Positions 296 through 57,141 of a stretch of 64,000 nucleotides of DNA are shown here, one piece after another; the first letter of the stretch is position 1, and each line of letters opens with the position of its first letter. The translations under genes were made by a program, and so were the position numbers. A model generated the notes under the pieces. That model did no database searches. It saw only the letters and a list, made by a program, of their open reading frames with translations, and was not told the origin of the DNA. Origin of the DNA: Fistulifera solaris (lineage: Eukaryota > Bacillariophyta > Bacillariophyceae > Naviculales > Stauroneidaceae); NCBI GenBank assembly GCA_030295235.1, contig AP026130.1, positions 558,001-622,000 of the forward strand, written 5' to 3'.

Positions 296-3200
296 ATGTC
301 ATCGAAACCGTTGAAACAAGGAACGCTCTTTTCGTTTTTCAATAAACCCCAACCTCCTGCCGCACCCGCAGTACCCGCAGTACCGAAACCCAAGGAAGCA
401 CCAGTCGCTACAAAAGCGGTGAAAATAGGAGATCGTATTGAAGTATACTGGAAAGACGATCAAGAATATTACGCCGCGACGGTCACACAACAACGTCAGG
501 CTTCCTTCTTTCTCGAGTACGACGATGGTCAAACGGAATGGTTGGATTTAGCACAGGAACAATTTCGCGTTTTTCCTCCTTCAAAACAACGAAGATCGAT
601 TCGAGATGATGACGAAGAAGCGGAATTTGATGGGACTTTGGAAGAAGAATCCGACGATGGATCGGTTTACGAAGACAAAGAGGATCCGAAAGATGATCTA
701 TCCGAAGAAGACAAATGGCTCGTTTCGGATGAAGAAGAAGAAGAGCGGCCCAAAAAGAAACTCAAAGTGACGAAACATAAAGCAACTCCCGAGTTGAAAA
801 CACCTTCGGCACGCAAAACGACGGCTTTGAGTCAATTTGGGCACACACCCAAGAGTGTCATTACACCGTCTTCCCAATTCTCTCCTCCAGTCGTACCTAC
901 ACCTCTGGCAGCAACGACCACTACTACTGCAAACAAAACCGCGGCAACTTCTACGACGAACGAAAACAACAAAGTCACGCCCTTTGTGAAAGACGCGGTC
1001 AACCCCGCGGGGAGTCATGTGCACAATCATTTGCCCTTTTGCAGAATCCGCGTGATTTGCAAAAGCGATCCACGGACGACCCTCAGTACGATCCGCGAAC
1101 TTTGCTCGTGGTCGAGCGGGATTGGGTCAAAGTCATGGGCAAGGAAATGACGGACGCGGTGAAACAATGGTGGGACTTGAAATCGCAATACTTTGATACC
1201 GTTCTGTTGTTCAAAACCGGTAAGTCGTTCGGGGGTCTTGTTTGAAGAAAATGGTCGTCCGTCTCACGCTCCTCGAAAACAGGCAAATTTTATGAAATGT
1301 TTCACATGGGTAAGTGTTAATGGGGAGGTCGCTGACAGGACGTTCCGTGTTGAATACTGATCCTTTCCTTTTCATATATTCTTCTAGACGCGGACGTCGG
1401 TGTCCAGGTGCTCGGATTGCTGTACATGAAAGGTATCGTGGCGCATGCGGGGTTCCCCGAAATTTCCTACGGGACCATGGCGGACAAATTAGTCCGTGCG
1501 GGGTACAAAGTAGCCCGTGTGGAACAAACCGAGACCCCGGAGCAATTGAAAGTTCGCAAGTCGCAACACAAGAAGACCAATGGTCCGTCCCCCAAAGTTG
1601 TCAACCGTGAGGTATGCTCGGTGATGACTTTGGGCACTCGTACGTTTTGCTACCTTGATGACGGAAAGGATGTCCTGGACGAAGGCGGCGCGGTCGGGCC
1701 GTTGCTCGCCATTCGTGAGATTTTGATCGATCATGACGTGGAGGGGGAGACCGATGAGGTCCGACCTGTTTGCGAGTATGGTATTACCGCGATTGATGCT
1801 GTACGTGGTGTGGTAACCATTGGTCAGTTCGCGGATGACGTTCTGCGAAGTCGTATGAATACACTTTTGGCCGCGCTGGCTCCGTCTGAGGTGCTTTTGC
1901 AAGCCGGCGCAGATGGAGCCTCTCCTGTACTGGAGTCACTGATCAAAACGCATCAAAGCATGTGCCCGCATCCATTTCGAGTGGAGAAAATCAGGGCAGA
2001 GGAAAGCTTCCCCAAGTCAACTGCACTCAGCCCGGAAGTGCGCCAAGCCATGGATCGAGGAAGCGGACGATTTGTGGGTGCGGTTCATCCTTGGGACGTA
2101 GAAGAAACAGTTCAGGAATTGCATCGCCGTCGCTACTTCCCCCAGGCATCGAAAGTGTCTGCTGATCGGTTCAGCGTGTCCCGTTGGCCTCATGTCTTAC
2201 GCGCAGCAGTGGAAGGAAAAGCCGATTTGGCCATGAGTAGTTTCGGTGCAGCTCTCTTCTACCTACAACGTAGCTTGATCGATACCGAGATCCTCACCAT
2301 GGGTATTGTGAAGGCCTATGTCCCACCGTCTTCGGCAAATACTGACGCTGAGGTTCGTGAGACGATGCAAGTGCTTGCAACGCAAGAAAGTCACACATCC
2401 ATCGAGGGGGCGATAGCAAATCCTGCTAATATACCCGCACAGGAAGAAGGACGCGAAGTTGCCAATTCTCTTCTGGCTGAAAGCTTGATCGATCACATGC
2501 AGTTAGACGGGACGACGTTGCACAATCTAGAGATTCTTACAAATTCCGTCGACTACAAGGTGGCTGGGAGCGTCTGGTCCAAAATCAACTACACGAAGAC
2601 TCCACATGGGGCGCGCCTTCTCCGAGCTTGGCTTCTAAGGCCTCTATTTCGGAAAGCGGATATCGACAGGCGAGCAGATGCAGTTCAAGAGCTGGTGTCT
2701 GGTGCTGCTGCGGTGGCGCTGACTGAAGCCTCAGCAGTCCTTTCAAAATGCGGTGATATCGAGCGTTTGCTAAGTCGTATTCATAGTATGAGTGGTAGTA
2801 CTGGCCTAGAACAGGATGATGACAACGAAGGTATTCATCCTAGCAATCGAGCCGTTTTGTACGAAGTAGGAACCTACACAAAGCGAAAAGTCGGGGACTT
2901 CTCGAAAATTTTGAATGGTTTGCAGCATGCAGCCCAGATTCCTGAAATTTTTCAAGGAATAAACCTTGAAAGTGGTCTTTTACAAAAGATTGTGCGTTCA
3001 GTCGATCAAGGTGGATGTTTTCCGAATATGTGCGATCAATTGGATTGGTTCATTTCGAACTTTGATTGCGACAAAGCAGCCAAGGGTCTTTTCGAGCCTA
3101 ATAGAGGTATTGATGCAGCGTACGATGAAGCTTGTGAGACTATTGATCGCATACAAGCTGATTTAACGGAATACAAGAAAGTTATGTGCGACACTGTTTT

Positions 3201-4615
3201 AAAGCCACGATCGTTGGCGACTTCATCGTGGAAGTATGTGAATGTCAACCCGGAATCAAAAGACAAATACTTAATCGAACTTCCTGCGTCGATTGCTGTC
3301 CCGGACGACTTTATTATGAAGGGGAAGAGAGGAAGTGGTCCAAAACAAGTCAATAAATACCAAACCGCAGCCGTCCAAGAGTTAGTAGATGAACTAGAGC
3401 ACGCTTATGAAATTCAGAAGGAACGGAAGTCGAAAGGTCTACAGCTCATATTCGGGAAATTCGATGCGTCGAGGAATGTTTGGGCGGCGGCTGCTCAAGC
3501 AACGGCTCTGCTCGACGCCCTTGGATCCCTAGCCCGTGTTGCTTCAAAGGCTGGATACATTAGACCAACTATTCTAGAGTGTTTTCCAGACGACTCGCCG
3601 AGAATAAATATTGTACAAGGCCGACATCCTTGTGTTGAGAATAACACGGGGTCTACTGGTTTCATTCCCAACGATCTATCGTTGGGTCTTGAAAACAGAA
3701 GATGGCGTAAGCCCTCGTGTTCTTCTCCTCTCCGGTCCGAACATGGGTGGGAAGTCTGTAAGTCATGTCTAATTGATCGAAGAGCTTTATTTCTTATTAC
3801 TCGATGGCAGGCGCTCTAACCAGTACCATCCTTTTTACGCAGACTTTGCTCCGCCAGACATGTTTGATCACAATTTTAGCTCAGATTGGAAGTTTTGTCC
3901 CCGCCGAGAAATGTGAGATCACTCCAGTCGATCGCATATTCACACGGCTTGGTGCTTCGGACCGATTGCTTTTGGGTCAATCGACTTTCTTTGTTGAGGT
4001 AAGCGTTTTTGTTATACAATCACTCATATCTATTTAAGAGCAACAAACTGATTACCATGGATTTCTTAGCTCGCGGAAACTGCAGCAGCGCTTCGGGGTG
4101 CAACTCGTAGGAGCTTGGTCATCATGGACGAACTAGGGCGTGGTACGAGTACTTTTGACGGTACGGCGATCGCCAGTTCCACCGTTAAACATTTTGTTGA
4201 AAGAAGTAAATGCCTTCTGCTTTTCGCGACGCACTATCATTCCTTGTTGGAGGATTGGAAAAACAAACCAAGTGTTATTCTTGGGCATATGGAATGCATC
4301 GTCGGCAATGGTTCCTCTGAAAATGAGAACAGCGGAAACGACAATTCCATCACTTTTTTATACACTCTCGGGTCGGGTGTCTGTCCCAAAAGCTTTGGCA
4401 TCAATGTTGCCAGACTCGCCGGGATACCGGAAGATGTTCTAATGAAAGCAAAGCGTATCAGCTTGGATTTTGAAAAGGAGTTGCAAGGAAACGACGACAA
4501 TCTTCGCGTTGTCACGGCCAAAAATGCACCTACTTTGCAAGCGAAGGTAAAGGATTCTATTGGGAGAAAAGATTGGGAAGCACTATCTACAATCTGGAAA
4601 CAATTACAGCATTAA
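296..4615 (+). CDS. MSH6: DNA mismatch repair protein MSH6 (MutS homologue 6)
   Basis: MSH6 is the mismatch-recognising partner of MSH2 in nuclear MutS-alpha. The start at 296 puts a PCNA-binding PIP box (QGTLFSFF) at residues 8-15. A Tudor-like domain follows (about residues 42-95; [11 protein letters not shown]), as in plant MSH6, where animals have PWWP. After an acidic linker come the MutS mismatch-binding, connector, lever and ATPase domains: Walker A GPNMGGKS, Walker [16 protein letters not shown], and the [21 protein letters not shown] stretch. Exons are 296-1219, 1283-1309 (only 27 bp), 1388-3757, 3843-3998 and 4070-4615, about 1,340 aa, normal for the family. Two frame breaks interrupt it. 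The T run 1037-1040 is one base short (LPF|LQNPRD). The A run 3692-3695 is one base long, just before the Walker A region. Both are probably sequence errors. The 3' end faces SF3B3, 61 bp away. Confidence 0.95.
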
Positions 4616-4676
4616 CGCTACAAAATGTGAATTAAAGTTCATATTGCCTAACAATCAAATCGAATCTTCGTGAATA

Positions 4677-7600
4677 TTAATGCAGCGCGTTACGAGTGTC
4701 TTCCAACTTTTTCATAATATCCCCAGGACTTCGTTCCAGCTCTGCCGCAATTTTAGCTTGCTTATCATGAGGCAAAGAATTGAAAGCTTCACACAATTCA
4801 CCGTCAATGACGTGCAATGCTGGGGCATAGTAAGACCTATACGACTGAGGATCGCGGCCTGTAGGGCGAAGAACTTCAGTTCGCAAAGCCGTCTCAAGTT
4901 GCGTGAAGAATTCGACATCAGCACGGGAAGAGAACGGAACCAAAGCACCGATACGACCGCATGCAGTGACGTAAATGATTGACTCCGCGCCACCTGCGAC
5001 CAGCGAGGAACGAGTCATTGCCGTCACAACCTCCCCAACATAGTACTGGCAAAGAAGTTCCAGTTTAGGGGTTGAATCAGTTCTAGACGAATCCCACAAA
5101 GCTCGCTGCCCGGACATATCGATTGCACCCGCCTCTGCACCTCTCGGCATCCGGAGAATCGATATGTTGCCGAATTTATCGCTTACTGCAACTGTATTGA
5201 AGTCAAGCAGCTCTTGGGAAACGATTGGACGGGGACTTGGATCTATTGCTAAAGTAACAAAGCGATTCGCCATTGCATCGTAACGAAAAACTTGTATAGA
5301 CTGCATCATATCACCGACAAAGGCACGGTCGCCAACAGTTTGAATGGTCTTCACGAAAGTAGGGAGCCCGCGCTGCTCACACTTTCGCAGCAGCTGCCTC
5401 TTGCCCATTTCAAAAAGGCGGAGTGATTTACCAATCCCTGCAAGCAATCGACCTTGGAAATGAGCCAACGCAAGCACCGGTCCATCCTCTACAGCAGTCC
5501 TGTGCAGCAACTGCAAGCGCCCGCCATCAACTATTCGATATAGAACAATGTGGCTTGCAACCTGCTTAAGAGGATTCATAGTCATTCCAGTAACTGTGCC
5601 TACTGCAAGGAGGGGTTCGCCGCCTTTCGAATGAAAGCGAACAGAAGCGCAACAAAGTGCAGCTTCATTTCGTCCCATTTCGATACAATCTAGAGTCGAG
5701 CAGTTGGCCGATGGGTCTAAGAGTCGGACACAAGACCCCCATGTTCCCGGCTTCGAGGGCAAAGGGCCACGGACAGGCGTTTTTCGTGCATCCTTTTCCT
5801 CTTCATCTTCATCGCCATCACCTTCAGGTAAATCCTTCTTTTCTCCTTCATCATCACTATCTTCGTCCATGTCCATTGCGTCAGCATCGTCACCCTTAGA
5901 TGACACTTTTGCAGTCGGATCAAAGCCCATGGCCTTCTTCTCTTCCAAACCATACTCGTTGCAATCACTTTCCACGACAACAAGAACAACCTTTCTTTGA
6001 TCAGTTGTATTACTGACGGACACCAGGGTCATTTGGCGTGGTGTGTATCGTAGGTCGGCTTTATTGGTATTAAAAGCTTCATCATCGCCCCCGCCCATGC
6101 CATCCGTGTCTACTGATAAAATTCGCAACGTTTTCCCTGCAGTTGCAACTATGCCTTCGGGAATGGCATCAGAGCGAAAAAGAGCATCCGTGGTCTAAAG
6201 GAACATACGATAAAGGTGCCATTAGATGCTTTCCCGTCGATTCATCACGTCTACTGATCCAAGGTCTAGATGACAAAAGGAGCGTGGACTTTTGACCATT
6301 GAGTTCAATACGCGAGACAGAAACAGGAATTGCTCCAAGAAAGCGGCGCGAAGGGCTTGCTTCAACGGACCCAGTGACTGGATCTAGGAAGACTCGAAGT
6401 GAGCTTCCGTCGTCTAAACCAATATTCAATGTCAAGTCATCCAGTCCGTTTGGTTTGCCTTCCATATCTACCCCTTTGACGCTTTGAATAACGACGGAAT
6501 GCGGCCTAGATTTCAAAGCCAAGCTGCTTTTTGAGTCAGCAATTGCCCCGGTTCCAAGCTTACAATACGAACTGTTTGATCACGACACCCAATTGCCGCG
6601 AACAAACTTCGACTCTTTCCAGTATCAATGGTTCCGATATCCAGACAGCAAACATCAGCTCCCATATCCTTCGTGGAGCTTTCCGTGAGGTTACCGCTAA
6701 TGGCGTCGAGTTCAAAGTAGATGATTTCTCCACCGGCCAACGCAATGAGAACCTGGCTGGTATTAGCACTGGCGAACTCAATTCGCTTCAATCCAGGGCA
6801 ATGCCATTGCCGTGCTTGGCCTTTCTGAATGTGGCGAACTCCGGCTGGATGAACTTGACAGACAGATCCATCTTGACCTAGTGCAGAGCAGGCTAGCGTC
6901 GGGGCGGTAATCAAAAAGCCAGACTCCTTACCCACCTCTTCGACCGATTCACCCACGCTCAAAACAAGAGTGGCGTCAGCGAAGCTGACTACAATGTACT
7001 GATCTTTTTCCCCGGAAGCGTCCGCTACTGTAAAAATTCCACCTGGTACTCCGGGGAGGTCACTCACCGCCAATTCGGTAACAGCAGCACCATGTCGCAT
7101 GGTTCGGATGGTGCTATGAGGACCACGGCCTGTTAGGGTATAAATCTGGGGACTAACTTCGTTCCCGGCCAACTCCCCCACCAAGATTTGGTTCGTGGGC
7201 GCTGCATTATCTAATGACCAAATCTTACGCAGATTCTGCAGTCGACTGACGGGAGCGAATGTCTTGGCCAGCGACACAGCCTTGGCAGTAGTCAATTCCG
7301 TTTCCTCCACAGATGTATTCGACGGCGCATCGGGCACATCAATTCGCTCGAATTGGTACAGCGCATGGTCCCCGAATTCCGCCGCAACGAACAGTAACCC
7401 TAATTTACTAACATTCAATGTATTGGCTGTGGGTAATGTATCGAGAAACGAAACTTCCAAGCCGGACACGGCGGACTTGTCCTCGTTGAGCACAATCGAA
7501 ACCTTATACACATCCCCCAGTTCCGACTGTGCCAAGGCGAAGAATTTGGCCTTTTTCTGACGATGTACCGTCACTGTCGTGATCAAAATACCCTTGGAAG

Positions 7601-8447
7601 TATGCATTTCCCGGCGCGGAATGGGACACACGATGCGATTCTTTTCGTGCACATAGTACAACCAATCCTCCGCCCCCATCAAGACACCACCGGGTCCGTC
7701 GGCTCCGCCCGGCAACGCCGCCAAACAACAGGCGGTTTGAGGGACGGGAGTCGCCCATCGCCGACTGACGTGATTCAATCCCAAATCGAGTTCATAATAC
7801 GCCAATTGCAGTTCCGGTTCGATGTTGGTTTCCGTTTCTTCCGGATATTGCAATTCGAGCGTCGCAAACAGGGGATTGTCGTAACCATTGTCGAGTCCGA
7901 CGGTGGCCAAAATCAAGTTGCGCGTCCGATGCGCTTCGAGGGGACTCGACAACGTCGTTTTCCCGTCCGCCGTGCGATTCAACACGTACACCAATTGGCG
8001 TTTCTCGACGGCCGAAACCATGACGGCGCGTCCTTTCGGATCAGCCGCCAAATACTGACCGGGCGTCGCTCGACGACAACCCGTTTTCCCAAAAGTAACA
8101 TTGTGCAGTACGGCAAAGGGTTGGAATTGTAGAACGGACAAGGCACCGCTGTCGGATGTCACCACCAAGACATCGTGAGAGGTTCCCGGAAACCGGACGG
8201 CGACGCCGTGACGCAAAATCGAACGCGTTTCGACCCTTGTCACTAAATGCAATTTTTCGTCCGACAACTTGTACAATTCAATGACACCACTGGTTTTGAG
8301 GAGCGCCAATTCGTGGGGTCCGGTGAATTCCCCCAAAACGGATTGCACAATGGCAGTCGATGGTTGTAAACGAAGATCGAGCAGTTTCATGGCCACCGCA
8401 TGAACCGGTTGGGCCTCGATTTCGTCTGTCATGGCATTTGGGGGCAT
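4677..8447 (-). CDS. SF3B3: Splicing factor 3B subunit 3 (SF3b130/SAP130)
   Basis: SF3B3 is the beta-propeller scaffold of the SF3b complex in U2 snRNP, needed for branch-site recognition; it is related to DDB1 and CPSF160. The sequence follows human SF3B3 throughout: GCRRATPGQYLAADPKGRAV near the N-terminus, YELDLGLNHV, CPIPRR, GRGPHSTIRTMRHG, LSVGESVEEV, LDPVTG, GRLLAGIGKSLRLFEMGKR, DKFGNISILRMP and a C-terminal EELDR-like/KKLEDTR end. An acidic insert (GDADAMDMDEDSDDE-like) lies near 5800-5900. The length is about 1,256 aa, close to the usual 1,217, with no introns. Two breaks occur. The plus-strand T run 6528-6532 is one base short. The A run 6177-6181 is one base long, since removing one base restores exact spacing to the conserved IPEGIVA motif. 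ATG 8447 is chosen; a second ATG at 8432 is possible. Confidence 0.95.
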
Positions 8448-8765
8448 GCTAATTGTTTAATAGTGTTGTAAAGATAAATAATGATCGACAATACTACAAT
8501 CAAACGGAGGTATGCGAAGATACAGCATGCATCTCGCGATCTCGTCGTCCGCCGCCTGAAACATGCGTGAAAAGTGAAAAAACGCCACACTGCAACGGAA
8601 GGCGGACGAACAACGCTCCGAACGGTAGAGGTTTCTACCGATACGACATTGTTCATTCACGACGATGGTCTCATTCACGACCAGGATACAGCTCGTCCCT
8701 ATCTACAGAACTACCTGGTATGATTATCATATGATATGATAAAAAAATACAATGACTATTATTTC
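8448..8765. other. Intergenic region between SF3B3 start and TRAPPC13 end
   Basis: About 318 bp. It should hold the SF3B3 promoter and 5' UTR and the TRAPPC13 3' UTR. Short reading frames here overlap each other and show no domain. Near 8720-8745 is an AT-rich stretch (repeated atgat), probably 3' UTR of TRAPPC13. Confidence 0.5.
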
Positions 8766-10054
8766 TTATTCCACCATGACCTGAAATAATGCCGGTTGAG
8801 GCCATTCTTTTCCCGAAATCAAGTCCACAACCACACAGCCATCGACGGTCAGCAGTCCGGTATCCCTCGCCAACAAACGACCTGTGACTACGGTCGAACC
8901 ACCCCGGGGAGCGAGTTCTCCGAGCGATTGGAAATGACGTCCACACGCCAACGAACTGCGCAATTGCCACTGGACCGACAAGGATTGTTCGGCGTGATTG
9001 ACGACGAGGAATTGGACTTTTGCGGGACATTGAGGACGAGTTTGGGGGGAGGATCGATGGGTTCGACCGTCACCGGGAATCGATCCAAAAGTTCTTGACG
9101 GTCGGGTCGGGTGGATACCGTCGCGGCGGCCGCTGCCAAGTCCACGGAAAGTCCGGACCGATTCATGATCGATGTATCGACGGGAGGACAAATCGCTGGG
9201 GAGGACGAACATTCGCCGGTTTCTCCCATGGCTTTTCTCCACCGAAACACCGCCTTGCCTAGGACATCGTCTGCCGATATGCCCCGAAGAATGGCTTCGG
9301 GCGTGACCGCTTCGACACGAAATAAATACCGAAGGCACGAACCTTTATTGAGAATTGTACACTGATCAAACAAGGAAAGTGCTGTTACGCTCTCATTAAT
9401 GGAGGAGGGGTGTATCCGCACGGCCTCCAAACCATCCGAGGGCACAAAGGATGCATCACTAATGACCAGAGGTGTTTCGCTCGCCGGCTTGTTTTCCGAC
9501 GACGACGACGACAAATTGTACTCGACATCGATCGTCACAAAACAGCAACTATCGCCGCAACGAAAGATGGATTGTCGTATTTCGAGAGGAGCCGTTACCT
9601 GGAATCGGTAAAATTTCCGGAACGTTTTGGATCCGCCATCGGCAGTCATGTAGGCTACTTCGACTCGCAGAATATGCTGACCGGGTTCCTCGATCAAATG
9701 TGACACAATGGCATCTTTTCCCGAAAGCGGCTCAATGTCTATGCCTCCCGTAACATTATCTAATCGCGAAGGCAGCTGCCATCGTTGACTGGGCGTTTGC
9801 AATTGTGCTGAAACCCGCAAGCGACGAATCGGCCAATTCGACGACGTATTGAGAATGCCCAAATACGCCGTAAAGCACTCTCCGACATAGACGGCCAGAG
9901 AATCTGGCAAGCAGAGTGATCGTTCGAGTAATGAATATCCTTCTAACGTCCCGGCGACGGACTGATGTAATTCCGGCGACTGCAGCCTCATCACACGAAG
10001 GGTCGGTACAGCGGTCTCTTGATCGAGAGTAGACGAAGAATGAACCTCGGTCAT
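8766..10054 (-). CDS. TRAPPC13: TRAPP complex subunit 13 (DUF974)
   Basis: TRAPPC13 is a subunit of the TRAPPIII/TRAPPII tethering complex that acts on Rab GTPases in ER-Golgi traffic and autophagy. Support comes from the family's opening segment LRVMRLQSP, then LCLPDSLAVYVGECFTAYLG, LNTSSNWPIRRLRV, ADLQTPSQR-like (AQLQTPSQRWQLPS), and FRKFYRFQVTAPLEIRQ in the middle; these are the best conserved parts of the family. Inferred length is about 429 aa, against 417 in human, with no intron. The frame breaks in the plus-strand T run 9018-9021, which is one base short. Past it, the C-terminal beta-domain continues (VQFLVVNHAEQSLSVQWQL) to the stop at 8766. Read literally, the protein would lose its last 40 residues. 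Confidence 0.9.
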
Positions 10055-11063
10055 TATATTCTATTTTGATTGAATAATGCGACACCGTAGACTCTGTATC
10101 CGCTAAATCTAATCTGAATTACTGAGAAAAGAAATACAAAATGAGGGAATAAACTGTAAACTAGATATTGCACATCATCCAACTTGGTCACTCTTCTTTT
10201 TGCAAAGCAACATCGTCGTGTTCGATGTTCGATCCTCCGCCTCGCAAATACCGTTGCGTCTGCATTGACGTTTTCGTCAGTTGTTTAGTCTCCGTTGGAA
10301 GACAAATCCGCGACCCGTTGTCCGTTATCGGTCGGGTGCCAAACGGCCCGATCGGCTATGACGCACTGGCACAAAATGTACTTTAGGAGCTACGGTTAAC
10401 GACAAACGGCATGCTAACGTTTTGCGACAGTGCGCAGCGATTTCGAGGCGTTACATCACCGTTACTCGTTATCCGCCAATACTTCTCATCCGACAGTCCA
10501 AGGAGCGGATGGCTTTCCCAGGATCAGTCTTGCTCGCGCGCTGCCATTCTGAAAGCTTATAGAAGTAATTCGTCTACCAATGCTATTTAGAGGGAGCATG
10601 CGGCCAGCTCTTTAAGTATTCTTATGGCGGCGAGGGGGGCCGCAAAATTACTTAGACGGCCTTTCCGTAGGCAGGTAGCCGTTGACGGAAAATCACAACT
10701 TTGCTCTCTCGTGGGCGAGACAGAAAGGAGCGAGCAGCTTGGCAACCATTTGTTATCTTTGGATTTCGTCACAAGATTATTTTATTTTATCCTTCGAGTG
10801 AGGTAAGAACAGCATCAAGGCGTTTGAAGCCAAGCAAAAGATTGCAATGAAGTCAATTTATTCGATCGTTTGGTTGCGGAGATCTTTGCTTTATTTTTCG
10901 TGGCGATGGTTCGACTTTCTGCGATACACCGCTTGTCTTTGTCTGGATGAAGAGATACGATATTGCAAACCTCGAAATCAAGTTTTGGCTTCTTCTTCAC
11001 GTCTGCACTAATTCTAAACCTTTTTCTTTTCTTTGATATTCATTTCGCAGGTCAAATTAGCAA
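10055..11063. other. Divergent intergenic region, TRAPPC13 / Lsi2-like
   Basis: About 1 kb between two divergent starts, so both promoters should lie here. No reading frame shows a recognisable domain. The right part contains a probable 5' UTR intron (listed separately). I see no tRNA or other RNA gene. Confidence 0.45.
10803..11050 (+). other. Putative 5' UTR intron of the Lsi2-like gene
   Basis: A good donor (GAG|GTAAGAAC) at 10803 and a pyrimidine-rich acceptor (TTTCGCAG|G) ending at 11050 bracket 248 bp immediately upstream of the ATG at 11064. The interval is rich in stops and has no coding features. This is inferred from splice consensus alone. Confidence 0.5.
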
Positions 11064-43906: not shown

Positions 43907-44005
43907 ACTAGATGACGCATTTCTTTGTTTGGAGCTTTTTGATTGTGTTTTCTATGTATTTTGATTTTTGTGTATGTGCTGTGTAGCGCGATCTTTTTGT
44001 TTTAT

Positions 44006-44971: not shown

Positions 44972-45166
44972 TATGAGATAGTTAAAGTGATGGAAGATGT
45001 TTAACAAAGTATAATGAAGAGAAAGAAAAAACGAATGAGGGAGCGCGCACTTATTGAGTTTGTTTTTTGTGACTTTTTTTTCGAAATGTTTCTTTTCACG
45101 TTTTGAAAATGTCGCAGTGTGCACTGCGCTAGGTCTGCCATCGCACAAAGATTTCGAAGTTATCCT

Positions 45167-46112
45167 TTAGCCCCCGCGCGCTCCCGACGACCAATCCGAT
45201 TGTCCTTTCCAGATCATGTAATCTTCGACACAGGCACCCGGAACGCGCAATTCACGGCAGCACGGTTGGCACAACAACCGATGGCCCAAGGATTCTTCAC
45301 AGGTGGTCGAAGTCACGACGGTGGCCGTTTGATTGCGACAGGCCTCGCAGTCCACCGCTAAAGCAAACGATGGACTCCAAATATCATGAAGGAGCGGGTA
45401 TGGTAAAGGCTGTTTGGGACTAATCTTGCGATCCACTAAATACATGGAGCATTCGACGTCACCGTGACACACATGAACGTAGCGTACTCCCAATCGCAAT
45501 TCCAAGTCTTGCAAAGCAACCGCTTGCATGGGTCTCGCGTAGATTGGGACATCCGTCAAACCCAAAAACGTTCGTCGGGCTACCGACTCGGGTTCGGAGA
45601 AGAGCCATGCTAAAATGGGGGTAATGTAATCAACCTGTCCTACTCCATAAAACGTTCCTTCCAGAAAGAAAAAAGCCCGAATCAACCGCTTCTGATCGCG
45701 CACGATTCCATAAACGATCGTCCGCTAACTCTATAATAGCTCGATGTACATCAAATAATGTTTGTGTGCCCAAAAATTCCATCACCATACGGTTCGGTTC
45801 CACCGCACCGAATCGTCCCGGAAGTCTTCGCCAACATTCCAGGCATACCGTAGAAACGTGTTGCGCAGAGTCCGAAGGACGTAAACCATGACGATCTTTT
45901 CTTCGCAATCGAGCTAAAGCGTGTCCATCAATTCGCGAGTAGTCTCGAAATCCTTGACGGATTTCTTGCAGAACGTGTTGTGTCCGGGAAAGCGCATGGT
46001 CGCGTCGTGTCACTTCGGAAGCACGAGGCACTGCCGCAAACAATTCCCACAACGCGCGTTCGTACGACAAATGCACGGACGGATCTTCCAACGACACGAC
46101 TCGATCTCCTGG

Positions 46113-46146
<34 letters not shown>

Positions 46147-46448
46147 GAGTAGGGATTCTGTGGATGCGTGGTGGTGTAATCGAAATGATCCGGCAAACGA
46201 ACGTGATTCTCGTACCAAGTCGGATTTGTTTCGTGGGATACTTTGCGTTCTTCCAATTGTTCCCACTTCTGCAAAGCTTCCGCAACAACTTGTTCGGCGA
46301 CGACCGGCAACGGTGGTATCGCAATATTCGAACAATCAAATGGATCATCCTCGTCGTTTGTGTTTTGTGTCGTTGGATAACTGGCTTGTCGTTGCAATAA
46401 AAGTTGCCACTCCTGTTCGAATTGCTTTAAGGATATCTTTTCGTTCAT
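45167..46448 (-). CDS. SNAPC3: snRNA-activating protein complex subunit 3 (SNAP50)
   Basis: SNAPC3 is the zinc-containing subunit of SNAPc, which recognises snRNA gene promoters for RNA polymerases II and III. Support comes from LPDHFDY, FLGTQTLFDVHRAIIELAD, SGFF(F)LEGTFYGVGQ, LRLGVRYVHVCHGDVECSMY, then zinc-binding CEACRNQT and LLCQPCCREL. The N-terminal half is variable and carries an 11-Asp run encoded by the GTC repeat at 46113-46145. One frame break: the A run 45669-45674 on the plus strand has six bases where five restore DSGFFFLEGTFYG. About 427 aa, no introns. It is one of few SNAPc-type basal factors recognisable in diatoms by eye. Confidence 0.85.
46113..46145. repeat. (GTC)11 trinucleotide microsatellite
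   Basis: Eleven tandem GTC units on the plus strand, coding for a poly-aspartate run inside SNAPC3. The length is probably polymorphic between strains. Because the unit is three bases, changes keep the frame. Confidence 0.95.
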
Positions 46449-47163
46449 GATGGTATTGTCATGGTTGCGTTCCTTTCATTGCTCAGGATACGAAAGAGTC
46501 GACCTGTAATGACGCTGCTCACAAACAACTCCGTTCGACGTGTACCGAAAATTGCGCGTAAAGCCCACTGATCAGGTGATGATACCAGCGAGTTGCAAGT
46601 AATAAAGAGACAAAATGTCAAAACGCTTTCAAGGTTTTGTCAATGAAATGCAAAAGTTGAAGAATTCAATGGAAGCACAAGAAGCAAAAAAAATTGAAGG
46701 GATGTCATTCGTCCTTCGTTGACGGACGGTGTGCAGTCGCTCCGAAGCTCGACCCATTTTACCGTTGTTGAACGGTTATGTGTCACCAATAGAGAGCCAA
46801 TGATTTCGCTAAATAGAAATCTCAACGGTTAAGAAATTAGTCTTTTGATAGATTATAGTACATCGGGATTTGTTCGTTTCATCTAAGACCGAAAACAGAA
46901 GAAATGTACTCCGACCAGCCGTACGCGCGCACGGTACACACCAAGCCAGACCGTTTTCTGCACTCTGTACTTTAAAGTACTATTTGAATGCGAAGCTCGG
47001 AACGGGCCATGTGAACGGGACTGACACGATGCATGGAAGACGGAGAACGTTTTGGCCACGCGATGAGGCTTTTTTTACAACACTGTTTCTCGAAGAGATC
47101 GTTTCAATTTATTCATTCATACATAACATCCTCGGGAAAAGAATTTACTTACTGAATAACAAC
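46449..47163. promoter_or_regulatory. Divergent promoter region, SNAPC3 / EF-hand gene
   Basis: 715 bp. The frame of the EF-hand gene stays open upstream to about 46870 with another ATG near 47030, but that extension lacks similarity and is rich in His/Arg/Phe, so I treat it as 5' UTR. Confidence 0.4.
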
Positions 47164-48193
47164 ATGTCAACAGAAGAAGAAACAACCGCAAAGAGCGTTT
47201 CCATAGCGGAGGACGCTACGCAACCGACCGCAGCCAAGAAGCCGCTCGAAATGCGACGATTGTCGACAATTTCGCGACGTTATGACCGTGACGGCAAGGG
47301 ATATTTAGACGAAACCGAGCAAGCTTTGCGTCGAATGGATACACAGAATCAAGGGTTCTTGGGGATGGATAAAATCTACGGCATTGTGGAGGAACTGCAC
47401 GCACAAGAACAGCGTAATTCCGCGCTCATTGAGGATTTGCGGACCGAGGCCAAGGCGAATTCGAGTTTGCGAAAAGGAATCTTTTGTTGTGTGTTTTCAC
47501 CGTCTTTTGACCATATCGAACATTGGAACCAGTTTGGCGGCGGCCAGGTTAGCGAAAGACACGCAGGTTTCCTACTACAACGATTTGCAAAGCTCGGAGA
47601 GTGGCGTGCGATTGGGAACGACTCCGAAAGACGTCATGGTTCAGATGAATCCGGTTTCCGAGGAGCTCCGCATGCGCCGTAGCCGACATTTACAAGCCGC
47701 GTCGGACGTGATGTGCCCCAACGTTACCGCAGCGAATGCTGCCATCCATAATTCTACCATTCATTGCGAGCTCAGCGGAACGATGGGTTCGGCGGAAGCG
47801 GCGCGACTGTACGAACTCTTCTGCCCCGGGTACAAGACCAGCGGGTACTGCACAGGAAATGGCGTCAGTAAGATCAATTTGAACTGCCAGGGTCACCTGT
47901 CCACCCTCTTTGGTGGGTCACAGCTTCCCCCTACTCCTCCCGTTTCGTTTGATGGTATGACTGCCTACCCAACCAGCGGAAAGGGATACGTGGGAGAGGC
48001 AGCTGTCTTCTTGTTCGGGCGTTTACTTCCATGCATTCAGGAGTTTTCTGTTGGTCTTTACTGCCCAGATGAGCCGGTGGTTATGGACAGCGGTGAACTT
48101 AACGATGACTGCATGATGTTCCTGTCTTGGGAACCAGGAACATGTCTTGGAACAGTAGAGCTCTGCGGAGAACCTTCAGATAGCTCTGTTTAG
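47164..48193 (+). CDS. EF-hand, single-TM protein with Cys-rich C-terminal domain
   Basis: The N-terminal region carries an EF-hand-like loop (SRRYDRDGKGYLDETEQALRR) and a second degenerate one (MDTQNQGFLGMDKIYGIVEEL). A coiled helix (AQEQRNSALIEDLRTEAK) leads to one strong membrane helix read across two frame breaks: IFCCVF(F)TV(F)LTISNIG. The distal part (about 240 residues) has conserved-looking Cys (CPNVTAANAA, FCPGYKTSGYCTGNGVSKIN), probably outside the cell or in a lumen. This arrangement suggests a Ca2+-responsive membrane protein family common in diatoms; function unknown. Both T runs 47494-47497 and 47504-47507 must gain one base for a continuous helix. About 343 aa. Confidence 0.7.
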
Positions 48194-48593
48194 AAGGCTA
48201 AAACATTCAGCTACATTAGTATGCATCTCAATCCGCTTAGAGTGCGGTATCTAAAGATGATCCCTCGAGTAATTCACTTTGGAATCAACTACATATAAAA
48301 TATTCAAGAACTAAGCCTCTAGATTATAGAATATTGAGCTACTTGGAAGAAGTTATATTAAAAAATGAAGCATGTAGCTATGGTCGGAAGCCGGAATGGA
48401 TTTATTTTTATCCTTATACTCCTTAGTTTCTTTGGTGACGTCACAATTCTTTGCCGATCATTTTTTGCCACCGCCAAAAATTTGACGATTCTTCTTCGTT
48501 CATCGTCATTCTTTCATAACAACAAGCTCAGCAAACGCAGCCAAAGACTTTCGCCGCTCTAGCATATTACATTGCCTTAATATTACAAGGAGC
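48194..48593. other. Intergenic region
   Basis: 400 bp between same-strand genes. A 65-codon frame at 48365-48562 starts with an ATG and is hydrophobic/Ser-rich, but it has no recognisable domain and probably lies in the next gene's 5' UTR. AT-rich on the left. Confidence 0.4.
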
Positions 48594-49649
48594 ATGCTGC
48601 AACCGCTCGATTCCGAAAAAGCGAAAAAGGAAAAAGAGGAGTCTCACGAGGATGATGCGCTTCGTCGTAAGCGTCGGGCGGACGAATTCCGTAGAACCTT
48701 TTCCGTGTGGAAATTTGTAGACCCGAAACAACCGTGGATATTGGTGGAGAATGGCTCTTTTTTAGGGTTTTTCGACTGGCTGCCAGAACACTTCCGGATC
48801 GGACCTTGGTCGATTTCGGCGTTAGCTCTCTTATTCACGATCGCGTACCTCATACTCTTAGCCGGAGTCTATTTTACAACCCCGCACAGTCAGCCTTGGT
48901 TTCCGAATAGCGACATTTATCACGGATCCGTTGTTGACATGTACCCAGATGCCTGGTCAGCACCGTGGTATTATCACTCGTTCGGCTTGCTTTGGATGAT
49001 CTTCATAATTTATGTGATTTATACCGGCCCGACTGGTCCTCGTGCTTGGTGCACGTACACCGTGCAGTCTTGGACGCTGTTGACGTTTCGACATGGATTA
49101 TGTGTCCTGGCACCTTGGTCGTCGACCGCCGCCAGTGTGGCGGAGTGGACCCGTTTTCCGGCGGCTTGTTCCGCCACCGTCACCTTCTTTGTCTGGAATT
49201 TTGCGGTGTTCCCTTCCGTATACCTTTTCTTCCTCAAAGACCCTGAGCACAAGAGAAATTTCTTTAAGTTCTGCACAAGCTTCCGGATGCTCAACATTCA
49301 TTTTGCCAATATTGTGCTTGCTGCAATCAATTGTGGGCCTTGGGCATCCCCGCGCCGTCGATTGGTATGGATGGATCTTTATGTGTCGATGGTGTCGATT
49401 CTAATCTACATGGGGCTTTACTTGCTGATATTCGATCGTCTGGGGATTCACATGTATCCTTTGTTTTCGCCGAGGACCAGCATGGTTCTTCCGGCTTGGA
49501 CTTCTCTTCTGGGTGTGTACCTCCTCACTTTTTTACGCATGGAGATGGATAGTGGATATTGTATAGTTCTCAGAGGTTATATTGCGTTCAGTCAGTCATT
49601 GCATTTTCGTACCAGTAGGCGACGAGCTTGTTTTATTATGAATGGATGA
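48594..49649 (+). CDS. Polytopic membrane protein, possibly AIG1/FAR-17a-like
   Basis: After a charged cytoplasmic N-terminus (residues 1-45, KEKEESHEDDALRRKRR) come at least six hydrophobic segments: ISALALLFTIAYLILLAGVY, FGLLWMIFIIYVIY, a Trp/Leu-rich one, ATVTFFVWNFAVFPSVYLFF, VSMVSILIYMGLYLLIF and LPAWTSLLGVYLLTF. The loop LNIHFANIVLAAINCGP followed by LYVSMVSILIYMGLYLLI...MYP loosely resembles AIG1/FAR-17a proteins (FAHFA hydrolases), but I cannot confirm it. The T run 49529-49534 has six bases; five would give a C-terminus LLTFYAWRWIVDIV with a stop at 49566, more plausible than the literal Arg-rich tail ending at 49649. Confidence 0.6.
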   Translation: MLQPLDSEKAKKEKEESHEDDALRRKRRADEFRRTFSVWKFVDPKQPWILVENGSFLGFFDWLPEHFRIGPWSISALALLFTIAYLILLAGVYFTTPHSQPWFPNSDIYHGSVVDMYPDAWSAPWYYHSFGLLWMIFIIYVIYTGPTGPRAWCTYTVQSWTLLTFRHGLCVLAPWSSTAASVAEWTRFPAACSATVTFFVWNFAVFPSVYLFFLKDPEHKRNFFKFCTSFRMLNIHFANIVLAAINCGPWASPRRRLVWMDLYVSMVSILIYMGLYLLIFDRLGIHMYPLFSPRTSMVLPAWTSLLGVYLLTFLRMEMDSGYCIVLRGYIAFSQSLHFRTSRRRACFIMNG

Positions 49650-50031: not shown

Positions 50032-51267
50032 ATGACAATGGTCACAGACGATAGCCTCTCTTCCAAACGCTCCAGCTCGTCGCTAGATGGAGAATGTTCA
50101 TCCGATTCGATGGATGAGCGAGAGGACGAGAAAACGATTCCATTTTTGAGGTAAGATAGCAAGTTTGCCTCGTCCGCGCGATGTGAATGCGATAAGGCCG
50201 CCTTTGGCCGTTCCGAGTGATTCCTATTAAGTCATTCGTATGATGAATGGTTATATTGATGCAGAAAGATGAATCGGGATTGTTTTTGCCCCCAAAAGAC
50301 TCGAAGTCGATGTGATGGATCGCTCCCATCACTCGCATCCGCAAAACGAGAAAGAGAAAGCATTCCGAGCCTCATAACCTGATGTTGATGTTTTCGGCAC
50401 TGTTTCGACGATACAACATCACGAGTACCGCATTATTTTCAAATTCTTTCGCCCCGCCGACGCTTTCGTCTCCTCCTCACATCATGACTTCTTACCATTT
50501 CGAACCTTTTTTTATCACACAGACGCCTCCGTGATATGTTAGTTGAAAACAAGGATTCTATTACGTTTCAACCTGGTCGTAAGTAGTGCGATCTATACCT
50601 GATATCATGTCCATGCACCATCAACTCATGATAATTATTTGTTCTTTCTTACTATCACAGAACGGAATCAAGGTGGAAAAAATGTGCTTGGAAAGATTAT
50701 TGTTCAAGATCGGGTGACGGTTGAAGCAAAAGTTCTTCCAAAGTACTTCAACCACTCTTCGTTTGCTTCGCTTCGCCGTCAACTCAATTACTTTAGCTTT
50801 GTTCGTCTCGGGAAAGGACGACAACGGCAGTCTTCCTACGTCAACGAGAGCGTGTATGTGCTGGATGATATCTTGCTGTTGAAGCGCCGCCCAACGGGAG
50901 CAAACGCTGTACCTTCGAATGACCTCATCTTCCCCGTACTACAAACACCGGTCCCCTCTAGCGTTGAAACCGATATTTTTACCTCGAGTGTTTTTGATGA
51001 GGTGGTGCTTTCCAAGCGAACCACGAAACGGCGTCGCCTTGTGTCAAAGGGACACCTCTACTCCACGCAAAGCGTTCCATTGTGCCAGCAGGGAATTGTG
51101 TCAGCGAAGACGAACACTCAGAACCGAAATATCTGCTGGATCTGACTACTCCCGTAGAGAGCGCCGACAATGATGTTCTGGCAGGGTGCAGCGCCCTTTG
51201 CGATTGTCTTCTCAAACTTGGTTGTAAAAGCTTTTTGGAGTCGCTGCCTTCTGTACATAATATATAA
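50032..51267 (+). CDS. Heat-shock factor (HSF)-type DNA-binding protein
   Basis: HSF-type regulators are the largest transcription-factor family in diatoms. The winged-helix domain spans IPFLR|RLRDMLVENKDSITFQPG, then VEAKVLPKYFNHSSFASLRR and QLNYFSFVRLGKG, equivalent to the LPxYFKHxNxxSFVRQLNxYGF core. A basic patch KRTTKRRRLVSKG follows. The domain is split by two introns (50151-50522 and 50579-50660); exons are 50032-50150, 50523-50578 and 50661-51267. Downstream of the domain, the A run 51046-51048 or G run 51049-51051 appears one base short; with correction the protein continues (VPAGNCVSEDEHSEPKYLLD) to 51267 instead of stopping at 51145. About 260 aa. No heptad HR-A/B oligomerisation region is evident. 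Confidence 0.85.
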
Positions 51268-52080
51268 CTAGTTTATCCTATTGTAGCAAAATGTAGAGGT
51301 GTCTGTATGGATAGCATCGTTTTAGTCTCGTCACAAGAGAGTCAGCGCCGCTTAGCTCAGTGGAACAACAGGGCTGTCAATCACGTTGCAAATTCACGGC
51401 AGTCACGTGAGGTTTCCCGCCCTTTTCGTGCGTCTCCGAAGGTGAACTTGGGGATCCTAGCTTGTCGAAGAATCACTACTGCGCGCGATGCTTCGGTGAT
51501 TTGCTTCCCGCTCATGGGATTGTGTGCATTCAGTCGGTGATACAAACTAGTCCTACCCGCAATGCGAGTCAGTGAAGTAGCTGGAACGGGAATTCCAGGT
51601 GAAACAATTAGACGACCTTCCAACAATTCTCTAGTGAATCCGGTCCAGCTTTATGACGTCAGTTTGACCATCACGGCTCGTTTCTATCCAACGGATTGTA
51701 CTCTCCGTGAGTCGCGGGTGAAACACCTTCCACTGGAACCGTTCGAAAAGTCCTCAAGTCCCAAACCGTCCAAAATGAAACCCAGTGAACGATTTTGGCG
51801 GACCCAAACAGGATTTCGTTGTATGTGTAGCATTTGTTTATGCCCTTATGACTCAATAAGCGTTGGGGTACACAAAAGTGGTGCGCAGTACACTTTCATT
51901 CATAATAAAAAGTTCGCAGACATTCCAGTAATAGTACTCTCCTATGGGGACTCGAGAATGTCAACCGGGGGCGCGCTGGTAAGACTTGAAATAAATTCAA
52001 CGCCCGGGTGAATTTTTGCGGGCGCGGATTAAACGCTTTTCATCACGTTGTCGCATTTCTTTGCCTTGCAACGAAACACC
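51268..52080. other. Intergenic region, HSF gene to armadillo gene
   Basis: 813 bp. A plus-strand frame at 51562-52011 (149 codons, starting with ATG) has mixed composition and no domain I recognise. I leave it uncalled, since a rival open frame lies antisense to its left end. Confidence 0.4.
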
Positions 52081-55000
52081 ATGGCACCGCGAGAGGCGAC
52101 GGGACACTTCCCGGATCAATATATTGCTTTTGATTATGAAACAGCCTTACCCGTAGGTCTTCCACCGCAACATGATATTGCTCCGCTGGACGGTGACGAA
52201 AATAATGACCTCGACATGCTGCCGCAGTCGTTGAATCACGTAGACTCTGGTACCCCATCTGCGACGGACCCGCATCGTCCGAGTTCAGGGTCTCCCATTG
52301 ATCCTCTTTCCATTGATCCTACTTCTATGGATCAATCAACGCAAACGGCCGATCCCAACATGAATTTGGAATCGTATTTCGCCAACAGCGGACGACCTTT
52401 CTCGTCCCTGTCCGTTGGGTCTTCCATGGCAACGTCTCATCCGTCCTCATCACCCTTGAGTACCGGCTCGAGTATTTTACATACAACAACAGCCCCCAAT
52501 TCTCCCTCTATCTAGTGGTGATGCTGTAAGAAGAAGAACGCAACAACATCAACGGTCGGTCTTGGACTCGCTTGGTTCGAACGAAATGGAGGAAGATGAC
52601 CCGGTTCCTTCGTTAGAACAAACGTTTGATTCGAGTACCAGCTTTTCCGCAGTCGGAAGTAGTTACATTCGACAGGTATCGGTGACAGAACATTCCGAGA
52701 CGGAACCCATTTCGCCCGCTTCATCGGAAGATTCACAAGAATCGATGCGGATGCTTTATCGGAATACGGCATTTGAGGATGGCGAGGCACCGCCATCACC
52801 ATCACGAAATCAATCGCAGGATGAATCCAACATTCCATCGTCACCCAACTCCATTATGCTCACGTTTGGTCCCAACACGACCGTGGCGGATCTCAAATAC
52901 TTTGCCGAACGAGGTTGTATTGTGGCGCTATTGCAAGCGTTGAATACACCTCGGCTCATTACATTGGGAACCCGCATGTTGGCCGATTATGCCAAAATGT
53001 CCCATCGAAGAGTGGCGGTGGCGTCGAATCGACGAATTTTGGAATTCATTCAAAAGACGATGTTGCAGGAATGCGATTTGCCCGATGGGTTGGGACGTGA
53101 ATACGCGGTGGAAACCGTACGAAGTCTGACGGCGACCGAAGAAAGTGATCGGTTTCTTATGAATACGCCGGACTTGCTCAACACCTTGGCTCTCGTGGCA
53201 CGTGGCGGACCCTTTGTCACCGAAAATGGTGTTCCACATTCCTTGGCCTCGGAGAAAGCGCAGCTTCATGCTTGTATCGCCATTATGAATCTGAGTTGTG
53301 GGAAAGCGAACAAGATAGAGATTGCGAAAATCCCGGCGGTTCTGGAAGCGATGCGTGATGTGATGATGAGTCCATCGGAGGAAGCTCGACTCAAAGCCAC
53401 GACTTGCGTGAAGAATCTGAGTAATGCCGACGCCAATGATACCGCTTTGCTGGGGACTCCGGGGTTGCTGGAAGCGCTCGGGCATGTCGCTGTAACAACG
53501 TGTTCTCCGTTTGCCGGAGCTACGCCATGTACAACAAACGCATGTCTAGCTTTAATGAACTTGTCCATTTCCAAGACCAATAAGCATCGAGTCTTTCGTA
53601 CGCCAGGGGTTATGGATGCTCTTATGACAGTGCTAGAGCGTACTACTGCGCAGGGGTCTTCGACGGACGCTCGTATCAAAGCTTGCTCTGCTCTATCGAA
53701 CTTGGCCATTGGTTACGACAACAAGATTCCTATGTTCAACTACCCAGGATTTGTTGAGTCGATTCTAAATGTTATTCAAACTGACACAGGAGAAGCGCGA
53801 ACGAAAGCTTGCTCTATTTTGTGGAGCTTTGCCGCCGAAATGAAGAACCAAGTGCCGGTCGTTCAACGAGGTGACATTCTTCCGGTGCTGGTGAAAGTTG
53901 CCGAAGAAGATGTGACAACAGAGGCCCGTTTCAAATGCGTTGCGGCGTTGACGCTACTTGCTGAATCGCTCGAAAACGCAATTCCTCTGTTGGAGGCGGG
54001 TTCCCTCCCTCCTCTCATGGACATTTTGCACGACGCGGGCCCTGATCCCACCCAGTGGAAAGGTCAAACGGCATCGTGGTGCGTCGGTTTTCTTATGAAC
54101 ATTGCTCAGAGCGACGACGCTGTTCTAGCTTTGCGAGAAGCTGGCGTGGTTGAATTGTTGGCACCCCTTTGACGCTGGATCACTATCAAAGCCTCAAAGC
54201 GGCAATGGCTGTCACATTTTGCTGTCGCTTTGACGAAGGCGACGAGTGTTACGATCTTCTTCGGAAGACAGAGAATGTGATTCCGAAGATCGTGAGTCTG
54301 TTGCACAACACTTTGTCTGGACGCGGAGGCAATGGATACAAATATGGGGTTTTCACACTCAGATCGTCTGTCGGCTGTATCTCCGCTCTTGCTTCAGGTC
54401 CTGAATTTATGAAGGAGCGAATAGCTACCAGCCCAGTATTTGAGAGTCTGCTTCGCGTTGTGACCGACTTTTGCGTGGATGGCGGCTCACCGGGTGCTAT
54501 TGTTGGAGGTGGTCGAGACGACGGCATAAGTGCAACACTTGCCATCCGCGCTCTCCAATCATTAACTGCTCATCTCATTCCTATTGCCGGTAGCAGCTCA
54601 CTCCCTTTCGACCAGTCGATGGAAGATCGACTGATTGTTGCTTTTGAATCATTTGAACAGACGGTGCATCCCGACATTGCACCCAAGACTATACAGCTTG
54701 CTACCGACGCAAAGATTCGTGTCCAAGGCGGACGTAGATCGGCGCGTAGACTCGCACATTGTACATTTATGCAAGATACCGATGATTTCGACATGGCAGA
54801 TGTTGCTTCCATGGCAAGCCATTGCTGTGGTCTCGACACAATCCCTGGTTTTGGAGAGCACTTGCTGCAAGCGTTGGCTTTGCCCTCTTTGAATAAGGAT
54901 CCGATGAAGACGATCGCGCGAACCCCCAGTATCGTTGAAAGCGACTCGTCTGATTCGAAAACGGCCGTTCGTACCTTTCTGTTAACGGACACCAAAACAG

Positions 55001-55224
55001 GTCGTCGATTTGTCGTCCCTACTGATCCCAGTGGAGGCAGGACCTTCAACGACTCGAGGGTATGGTGTTATCGCCGGGGTCGATTTTGCACGTCCGACGA
55101 GCAACCCGATCCTACTTACATCTGGACCGAAGACTTGCAGCATGCTTACGAAGCGGCGCTTGCAGGGGAACAAGATTTGAACAATCTATCAAGTAGTGGC
55201 TCCTATTGTGGTCCAATCGCCTAG
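52081..55224 (+). CDS. Armadillo-repeat protein
   Basis: An N-terminal low-complexity region (Ser/Pro/Asp-rich, about 280 residues) precedes an array of ARM-like helical repeats, visible as repeated ACxALxNLS units: LHACIAIMNLSCGKANKIEI, ATTCVKNLSNADANDTAL, TNACLALMNLSISKTNKHRV, IKACSALSNLAIGYDNKIPM, TKACSILWSFAAEMKNQVPV. Beyond them is a further 350-residue region ending in a Cys/Trp-containing module (TYIWTEDLQHAYEAAL). Two frame breaks: the C run 52493-52497 is one base long and the T run 54168-54170 is one base short. Without the second correction the protein would stop at 54172. About 1,047 aa, no introns. Function unknown; ARM arrays usually bind partner proteins. The ATG used is at 52081 (MAPREATG). 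Confidence 0.75.
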
Positions 55225-55383
55225 ATGATTTGACTTTTGCAATTATTAATCGCTTATAAAAAGCTTATTAGGCAATGCATACTGAGTTACTTTAGCTTTC
55301 ACGTACTATACGCTTTGTAAAAGTAATTTGAATTGGTTTTTGAGAATATTTGCTCTATTCTAGAATAATGCATTTAACTGGCA

Positions 55384-57141
55384 TCAAGACGTTGTGGTCG
55401 AAGAGGCGCGCTTTTTCCGTTTCGACTTCTTGGCAACCTTCGAGTTCAGTCTCTCCATTAGAACTTTGGTGACCGATTTTGGAACCCCGCATTTAAGAGC
55501 CTCGGTAAGGACACTGTTTCCATTCCAAGCTACATCTATAGTTTTCGGTGCCGCTTTTAAAAGAGCCTTTACTACACCAGCGTTGGCGTCGGGGCCCATG
55601 TTCAAGGCGTGATGAAGCGCTATCATACCATTTCTGCTAGTCGTCAAACTCTCCGGATACGCGCGGCACAACACCTTTACAACATCAACTGATACATCGG
55701 AATTTTGCACAGCAACGACAAGCGGGGTTCTTCCTTCGTTATCAACAATGGAGCATGCTCCTGTCTTTGAAGAAAGAAACTGTATGAAATCAACCATTTC
55801 AGAGACCTGCTCGCTTCTGCACGCAAGATGTAATGCGCAGGAACCATCATCGGTCTTCAAACTGTCAGACTCGTTCACAAGAGATGACTCCAGCAGGATC
55901 TTCGTTAACACAGACGGCACCCCGAAAAGAGCGCATACATGGAGCGGTGTCAAACCTTCCTTATTTTGAGTCAACATGGGACTCGACACACTTTTATCTC
56001 CATGTTCTAGCTCTTCTTTTCACCCAAAAGGAACTCGGTCACATCTATCAAGTTTTGATCATCATTCGCATTCTGCCGCTGCGTGGAACTAACTAGCTGT
56101 AAATGAAGCGGTGTATCTCCATTCTTATCCTGCTGTGAAATGCTGTCGGGGTATGCTTTGATAAGCTCTTCGATAAAAGACGCAGCTATTAATGGAGCTC
56201 CAGCAATATAGTGCAGAGGTATCATACCTCGATTGTCAGCGTCCATCGCACACGCAGGAGCTAGTCGAAGAAGCTGACTGAGTACTCCCCGATGGACCTG
56301 ATTCGCGATGGCGATGTGCAACAAATTGAGACCCTTCATGTTCTTGCATGACGACAAGGCTTCGGTTCCTACTTTCGTAAAAACATTCTCGGATAGTTCT
56401 TCAATAGCACTTACGTCCTTGCACTCCACCGTTTGCGTCATTGAAAAAGCGTCGCTAGCGATCAAAAGATGCAAGCAAGTGTCACCGTAGGAGTTGGGCT
56501 TACTCAGAATGCCAATATCCCGCATCAACGTATCCTTCACAATTGAAAAGTCCACACAGTCGCCACTCAGGTTCGCACACAGAAGATGAAAAGGTGTATT
56601 GCCATCTTTGTCCTCCAGCGAGAGACAAGTTGTTCGGTCGACTTCGGGTAATATACTGACCATTATGTGAAAAAAGCCCAGGAGGTGCTTTCCAGGCTGC
56701 GATATGCAAGATCGATTCACCCTCACTATCGTCTCTTTTCGTCAAAACGCGGGAAATATCTTGCAAACTTCCGTACTTTTGTAAACGGCTAAGTTGGCGT
56801 TTCACTTCGAGCCACTGACTCTCGTTCAAAAGCGGTAACAAGTCGATTGCAGATGCGCGATACTTGACTTTCTTGTTTTCGCCCAGTGATGACGTTGAAC
56901 TGCCTCCGTACGGATCAGAGCTCAACGAAGACTCCTGCAATGAAATTTGTTCCATCGATTGCTGAAACGAGTTCACATCCGCGTCGCTGCTGACTCGAAA
57001 CGCGACATCGAAATCACAATCCGGAAACATGTCGCTCGCCGTGCTGCTGACTTCGGGAGGTTCCTCAGCGATCGAGACTTTCGGCGATTTCTTCGGTGCG
57101 CGCTTAAATCTTTTCCGAAATACTCTGAATATGAATGACAT
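55384..57141 (-). CDS. Ankyrin-repeat protein
   Basis: A basic N-terminus (MSFIFRVFRKRFKRAPKKSP) and a Ser-rich linker precede at least seven ankyrin repeats, identified by their GxTPLHxA cores: GESILHIAAW, GNTPFHLLCAN, GDTCLHLLIASD, GLNLLHIAIANQ, GMIPLHYIAGAP, GDTPLHLQLVS, GLTPLHVCALFG, GSCALHLACRS, GRTPLVVAVQN, GMIALHHALNMG. The C-terminus is Lys/Arg-rich (KKSKRKKRASSTTTS), a possible nuclear signal. Two frame breaks: the A run 56670-56675 has six bases where five join GLF|HIMVSIL, and the T run 56017-56020 is one base short (LLGEK|EELEHGD). About 585 aa, no intron. Typical of the expanded, functionally uncharacterised diatom ankyrin set. Confidence 0.8.

Follow-up and report, generated by a model that had tools for sequence, protein, structure and literature searches.

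Along 57 kb of the genome of the diatom Fistulifera solaris, conserved genes repeatedly change reading frame within a recognizable coding sequence. Are these genes decaying, are their frame changes tolerated by the ribosome, or has the assembly miscounted bases? The region lies in a 64,000-nucleotide stretch, hereafter the window (G000:C11:558001-622000), of a 51.7 Mb assembly of 61 contigs; positions are counted from its first base. The original prediction listed 28 single-base frame breaks, all in homopolymers, and ascribed them to systematic errors in homopolymer length, chiefly T or A runs called too short. Two F. solaris assemblies, Fsolaris_ONT_v03reference (GCA_030295235.1) and the older Fsol_1.0 (GCA_002217885.1), appear in the reference list of PMC12159174. 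The assembly analyzed here would be the ONT one, whose name presumably refers to Oxford Nanopore, and we take Maeda et al. (2022) to be the paper describing it.

The organism provides an internal standard for examining the breaks, as F. solaris is an allodiploid (PMC13276009). Searching the same assembly with a 401-base query from the window retrieved a second copy on contig C12 (91% identity). When 80 kb of C12 were aligned, the window proved collinear with it over its initial 57 kb, in four main blocks (86–91% identity), followed beyond 57 kb by five shorter aligned blocks (75–95% identity). All 28 sites were read in both copies, and for 14 of them the surrounding frames were inspected by eye. 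Gene frames were followed by scanning three-frame translations, with stops written as X, against Pfam. A joint frame model run on the alignment of the window and its homoeolog then delimited coding segments and assigned breaks to each copy. This model was adopted because segmentation of single sequences by codon usage, which was dropped, missed much of the coding sequence. The C12 homoeolog also carries, opposite window positions 19189–19198, a 6.2-kb insertion absent from the window. The insertion has 374-base terminal direct repeats that are 99.5% alike and a short repeated target, and from these sequence features it looks like a young LTR retroelement.

Twenty-six of the 28 predicted breaks were supported by the comparison. 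Most of them (19 of the 28 sites) are confined to the window, and the homoeolog has one base more or fewer at the run or close to it. The window is one base short at 1037, 6528, 11181, 17818, 38320, 38534, 40307, 41270, 43518, 47494, 51046, 54168, and 56017 and one base long at 3692, 6177, 45669, 49529, 52493, and 56670; four of these sites (3692, 47494, 49529, and 51046) lie outside the coding segments of the model and were judged by eye. Four real breaks sit a few bases away from the predicted run (17818 at about 17816, 11181 at about 11192, 47494 at 47482–47485, and 52493 at about 52506). The claim that all breaks fall in homopolymers goes too far: a run of at least 4 bases is present within the 15-mer of the broken copy in 22 of 26 one-copy short events, compared to 15% of 5000 random coding positions, but the break at 29162 falls in a mere TT and short runs also host a few of the others.

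Several genes carry window-only breaks. A MutS-family gene (296..4615, plus strand), MSH6-like by its place and domains, is broken at 1037 and 3692, and its homoeolog has breaks of its own at positions matching 512, 1925, and 2473. Its MutS_I and MutS_III domains share one frame and MutS_V occupies two others, in a gene where introns also shift the frame. Similarly, an SF3B3/RSE1-like gene (4680..8456, minus strand) is broken in the window at 6177 and 6528 and in the homoeolog at positions matching 6913, 6966, and 8329; the second RSE1 propeller spans frames at profile positions 193/196. Pfam profiles indicate that the domain continues across the break in another frame in this gene as well as in the 5'-nucleotidase, an ABCG transporter, and the proteasome subunit. 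The latter, an alpha subunit gene (PSMA4 in the original prediction; 43055..43908, plus strand) with a break at 43518, matches the Proteasome profile from 2 to 111 and from 85 to 175 in two frames. Next to it is a NIF-type phosphatase gene (TIM50-like in the original prediction; 41019..42437, minus strand) broken at 41270 in the window and at about 41424 in the homoeolog. The joint model also placed breaks in both copies of a CCT-motif gene (17428..19031, minus strand), at about 17816 in the window and about 17805 in the homoeolog, 11 bases apart.

Other window-only breaks affect a CitMHS-type transporter (11060..12930, plus strand; near 11181–11192), a GLTP-domain gene (36856..38620, plus strand; 38320 and 38534), and a SNAPC3-like gene (45170..46475, minus strand; 45669). 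Toward the end of the collinear region, an ORF (48486..49646, plus strand) is one base long at 49529, near its end, and an HSF-type DNA-binding gene (50603..51300, plus strand) is broken at 51046. An ARM-repeat-like gene with Pfam matches below cut-off (51541..55221, plus strand) has breaks near 52493 and 54168. Lastly, an ankyrin-repeat gene (55387..57153, minus strand) is broken at 56017 and 56670 and has its repeats in two frames. The GLTP-domain gene adjoins a second one on the same strand (39409..40910, plus strand; window-only break at 40307), and the pair (36856–40910) is probably a tandem duplicate.

The remaining supported sites (7 of 28) are broken in both homoeologs, six of them one base short (9018, 24337, 29162, 31692, 44478, and 47504) and one long (35121). 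Two (31692 and 47504, the latter at 47505–47508) are outside the coding segments of the model and were judged by eye only. They affect a TRAPPC13-like gene (8768..10060, minus strand; 9018), where the TRAPPC13_N and M domains and the C domain are in different frames (M and C being below cut-offs), and an EMC1-like gene (23003..25523, minus strand; 24337), whose N-terminal propeller and C-terminal domain are also in different frames. In the 5'-nucleotidase gene (27742..29645, plus strand; 29162), the match to the 5_nucleotid profile reaches 246 in one frame and covers 245 to 299 in another. Two ABCG-type transporter genes adjoin on the minus strand (31129–35610). The ABC2_membrane profile of the first (31129..33649; 31692) runs from 1 to 103 and then from 101 to 210 in another frame, and the second (33612..35610) is one base long at 35121–35126 in both copies. 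The list is completed by a SWEET/MtN3 sugar transporter (44009..44898, minus strand; 44478) and an unnamed gene at about 47.5 kb (46852..48190, plus strand), which combines the window-only break at 47482–47485 with the shared one at 47505–47508.

Random error affecting a single copy does not account for these seven sites. At 29162 the run is just TT, and over the 62 bases displayed the copies do not differ. On their own, the shared sites would be compatible with ribosomal frameshifting, programmed or tolerated, or with slippage during transcription, at T or A runs conserved between the homoeologs. Runs of T are classic slippery material. A programmed shift would be expected to go in one direction at a site conserved in both homoeologs, yet 19 of the 28 sites are unshared and both short and long breaks occur, also among the shared ones. 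A strict literature search on frameshifting in diatom nuclear genes matched no paper, and among the matches listed for a looser one no title concerned this subject. Euplotes, with its abundant ribosomal frameshifting (PMC10235951), resembles the window in that many genes need a frame change to yield the full protein. However, the shifts described there are specified by stop codons, whereas the breaks in F. solaris are in or near base runs, go in both directions, and mostly differ between homoeologs.

Published genome-editing targets offered a way to compare run lengths with another source. Four of seven guide targets were searched in this assembly; three have runs of at least 4 bases and none lies inside the window. 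The target designed for both homoeologous apt genes (PMC13276009) has an exact match on C38 and another on C39, once each. Table 2 of the same paper, whose authors searched the older F. solaris assembly for these genes, lists a dde guide target, meant for both homoeologs, that contains six consecutive Ts (T6). In this assembly the run is T5 in both homoeologs (C7 and C8), and the VDE domain shifts frame at the T5 run in both copies. The reported yield of large deletions with dde guides (14 of 27 and 16 of 27 clones; PMC13276009) fits the printed T6 target being right. The comparison with another assembly that the original prediction had proposed covers the three targets with runs of at least 4 bases: one differs (T6 versus T5, in VDE), and the two with A4 runs agree exactly with this assembly.

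The VDE result also affects how the shared breaks in the window are read. Because both VDE homoeologs have T5 where the published target has T6, breaks shared by homoeologs can be systematic error. On the sequences compared, the VDE break common to both copies is most likely a repeated error. It is also the sole break in both homoeologs that is comparable with a published target, and the presence of one more T in that target argues against frameshifting. Frameshifting is therefore very improbable, and it is just as improbable that some of the seven shared breaks are real, conserved, and read through by slippage at short T or A runs. We infer instead that each shared break in the window reflects the same error process as in VDE. 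In the C8 de-epoxidase copy there is an additional break just upstream of the T5 run, and by eye the C7 and C8 genes seem to have more breaks, in differing places in each homoeolog.

An alternative is real loss of function, with one subgenome decaying to pseudogenes and the window representing the decaying copy. The allodiploid nature of the organism and the 19 of 28 sites at which the other copy is not broken likewise are consistent with such a decay. However, breaks elsewhere in the other copy are at least as numerous. Across 40.9 kb of coding sequence, the joint model in its main setting assigned 16 breaks to the window alone and 19 to the homoeolog alone; another 6 were common to the two copies. 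Among the joint breaks, the one in the SWEET gene was placed at 44454 though the run is at 44478, and the call at 33611 probably marks the edge of an intron. Among the homoeolog calls, 50895 is doubtful and 41424/41425 is a single two-base gap. Four looser settings, in which a gap run was charged once rather than per column (counts are still per gap column), gave 15 versus 21, 17 versus 28, 19 versus 33, and 18 versus 33 breaks in the window and homoeolog, respectively. Thus, if either copy is the worse one, it is the homoeolog. Its growing excess under looser settings means that the two copies are not exactly equal. Breaks on both homoeologs, mostly at different sites, are what long-read error would produce. 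Furthermore, MSH6 and SF3B3 are broken in both copies in different places, which makes loss in the window subgenome untenable as the general cause.

The lengths of the indels separating the homoeologs also speak against decay, from which other lengths would be expected. Coding sequence contains 34 one-base indels, 1 of two bases, none of 4 or 5, 1 longer indel that is not a multiple of three, and 46 that are multiples of three. Non-coding sequence, on the other hand, has 218 one-base and 104 two-base indels, 58 of 4 or 5 bases, 41 longer ones, and 110 multiples of three. In the four looser settings, coding sequence had one-base and other frame-changing indels in ratios of 31:4, 34:7, 36:10, and 37:9, compared to 221:201, 218:198, 216:195, and 215:196 in non-coding sequence (Fisher p from 2.4e-5 to 8.9e-4). 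Frame-changing coding indels of other lengths are therefore few (4 to 10), multiples of three are common, and breaks are not concentrated in one copy. As the joint model itself delimited the coding segments, the test is not fully independent of it; the one-base excess supports rather than proves homopolymer error.

We also looked for a sequence context of the errors. Judging from ratios of A-run lengths in 344 kb of sampled sequence, runs of 5 were not strongly depleted in any flank. Errors in T runs were modestly more frequent before G (17 of 26 versus 41%, p 0.01), a result that relied on automatic run picking and was given no weight. The picks at 47496 and 29165 were wrong and none was made for 47514; model events at 44454, 33611, 35130, 41425, and 50895 were dropped and events at 44480, 31693, 47514, 47496, and 51047 were added by hand. 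Nor can the error be tied to one fixed word, since the two copies at 44478 differ in called run length (4 and 5) and both are out by one.

The plastid provides a measure of consensus error in which subgenomes play no part. Contig C60 (232,645 bases) carries two copies each of plastid psbD and psbA, in opposite orientations; a further psbA lies on C61. Because the plastid was assembled redundantly, the assembly has a built-in gauge of its own consensus. Over 4 kb, no substitution separates the two copies of the psbD region in C60; they differ by 8 indel events (9 gap columns), each in a run of at least 5 bases in the longer copy. Thus, a molecule assembled twice disagrees with itself by homopolymer indels alone. 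The consequences for the reading frame are the same as in the window: psbD encodes the full 351 amino acids in one copy and is broken in the other, where the longest piece has 272 amino acids. The top-scoring PDB chain for the D2 protein of the plastid contig was 6j3y, which we take to be a diatom photosystem. True length variants of the plastid that lack any substitution could be imagined but are far less likely. Subgenome decay, which we regard as extremely improbable, does not account for a pattern that recurs when one molecule is assembled twice.

Equally hard to credit is a misreading of gene structure, with introns or wrong frames mistaken for breaks: it applies to 39644, may apply to 26113, and probably accounts for the model call at 33611, but the other 26 sites are flanked on both sides by conserved coding sequence in one or both homoeologs. 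At 39644, in the second GLTP-domain gene, one frame is conserved between homoeologs throughout, and the other candidate frame shows numerous replacements and, in the homoeolog, a stop; no break exists there, and the joint model placed one at about 39463 instead. Site 26113 is near the start of a JmjC/cupin protein gene (26102..27487, plus strand). Substitutions upstream of it number 4/5/4 at codon positions 1/2/3, and the frame there may not be coding because codon periodicity is lacking.

Taken together, the frame breaks are almost certainly homopolymer length errors in an ONT assembly, a cause that invokes no new biology. The cause named in the original prediction is thus upheld by the disagreement of the plastid with itself, the 19 of 28 unshared sites, the breaks elsewhere in the homoeolog, and the VDE T run. 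The consensus would mostly drop one base, and less often add one, in homopolymers and a few near-homopolymer contexts. Where the local sequence is similar in both homoeologs, the same error would recur and generate shared breaks. The underlying cause is probably a lack of adequate short-read polishing.

Errors of this kind have a precedent in Nanopore-only assemblies of Drechmeria coniospora (PMC7500977), also a eukaryotic long-read assembly, in which single-base homopolymer indels shift the frame of conserved genes and some errors are in just one related genome. Over-prediction of run length prevails in the account of D. coniospora, in contrast to the under-calling that dominates here. Our analysis also differs in that it compares sequences within a single assembly, namely homoeologs and redundant copies of the plastid. 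The kind of artefact is already known; the point added is that agreement between homoeologs does not vouch for run length, as similar contexts allow the same error to arise in both.

Because the breaks are miscounts of repeated letters in the assembly, the genes themselves are ordinary and automatic calls are likely to split them. Gene models on the public F. solaris assembly are therefore likely to be split or truncated, and work on gene loss, pseudogenes, or homoeolog comparisons that uses it could be misled. Annotation of F. solaris has yielded 26,808 genes (PMC12159174), whereas an earlier study reported 9007 pairs and 2441 singles, or 20,455 (PMC5935921). Gene splitting could plausibly contribute to this gap, although the pipelines also differ. 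F. solaris also has many duplicate ortholog groups, whose source is called unclear in PMC12159174; they would be explained by the two homoeologous gene sets that an allodiploid carries.
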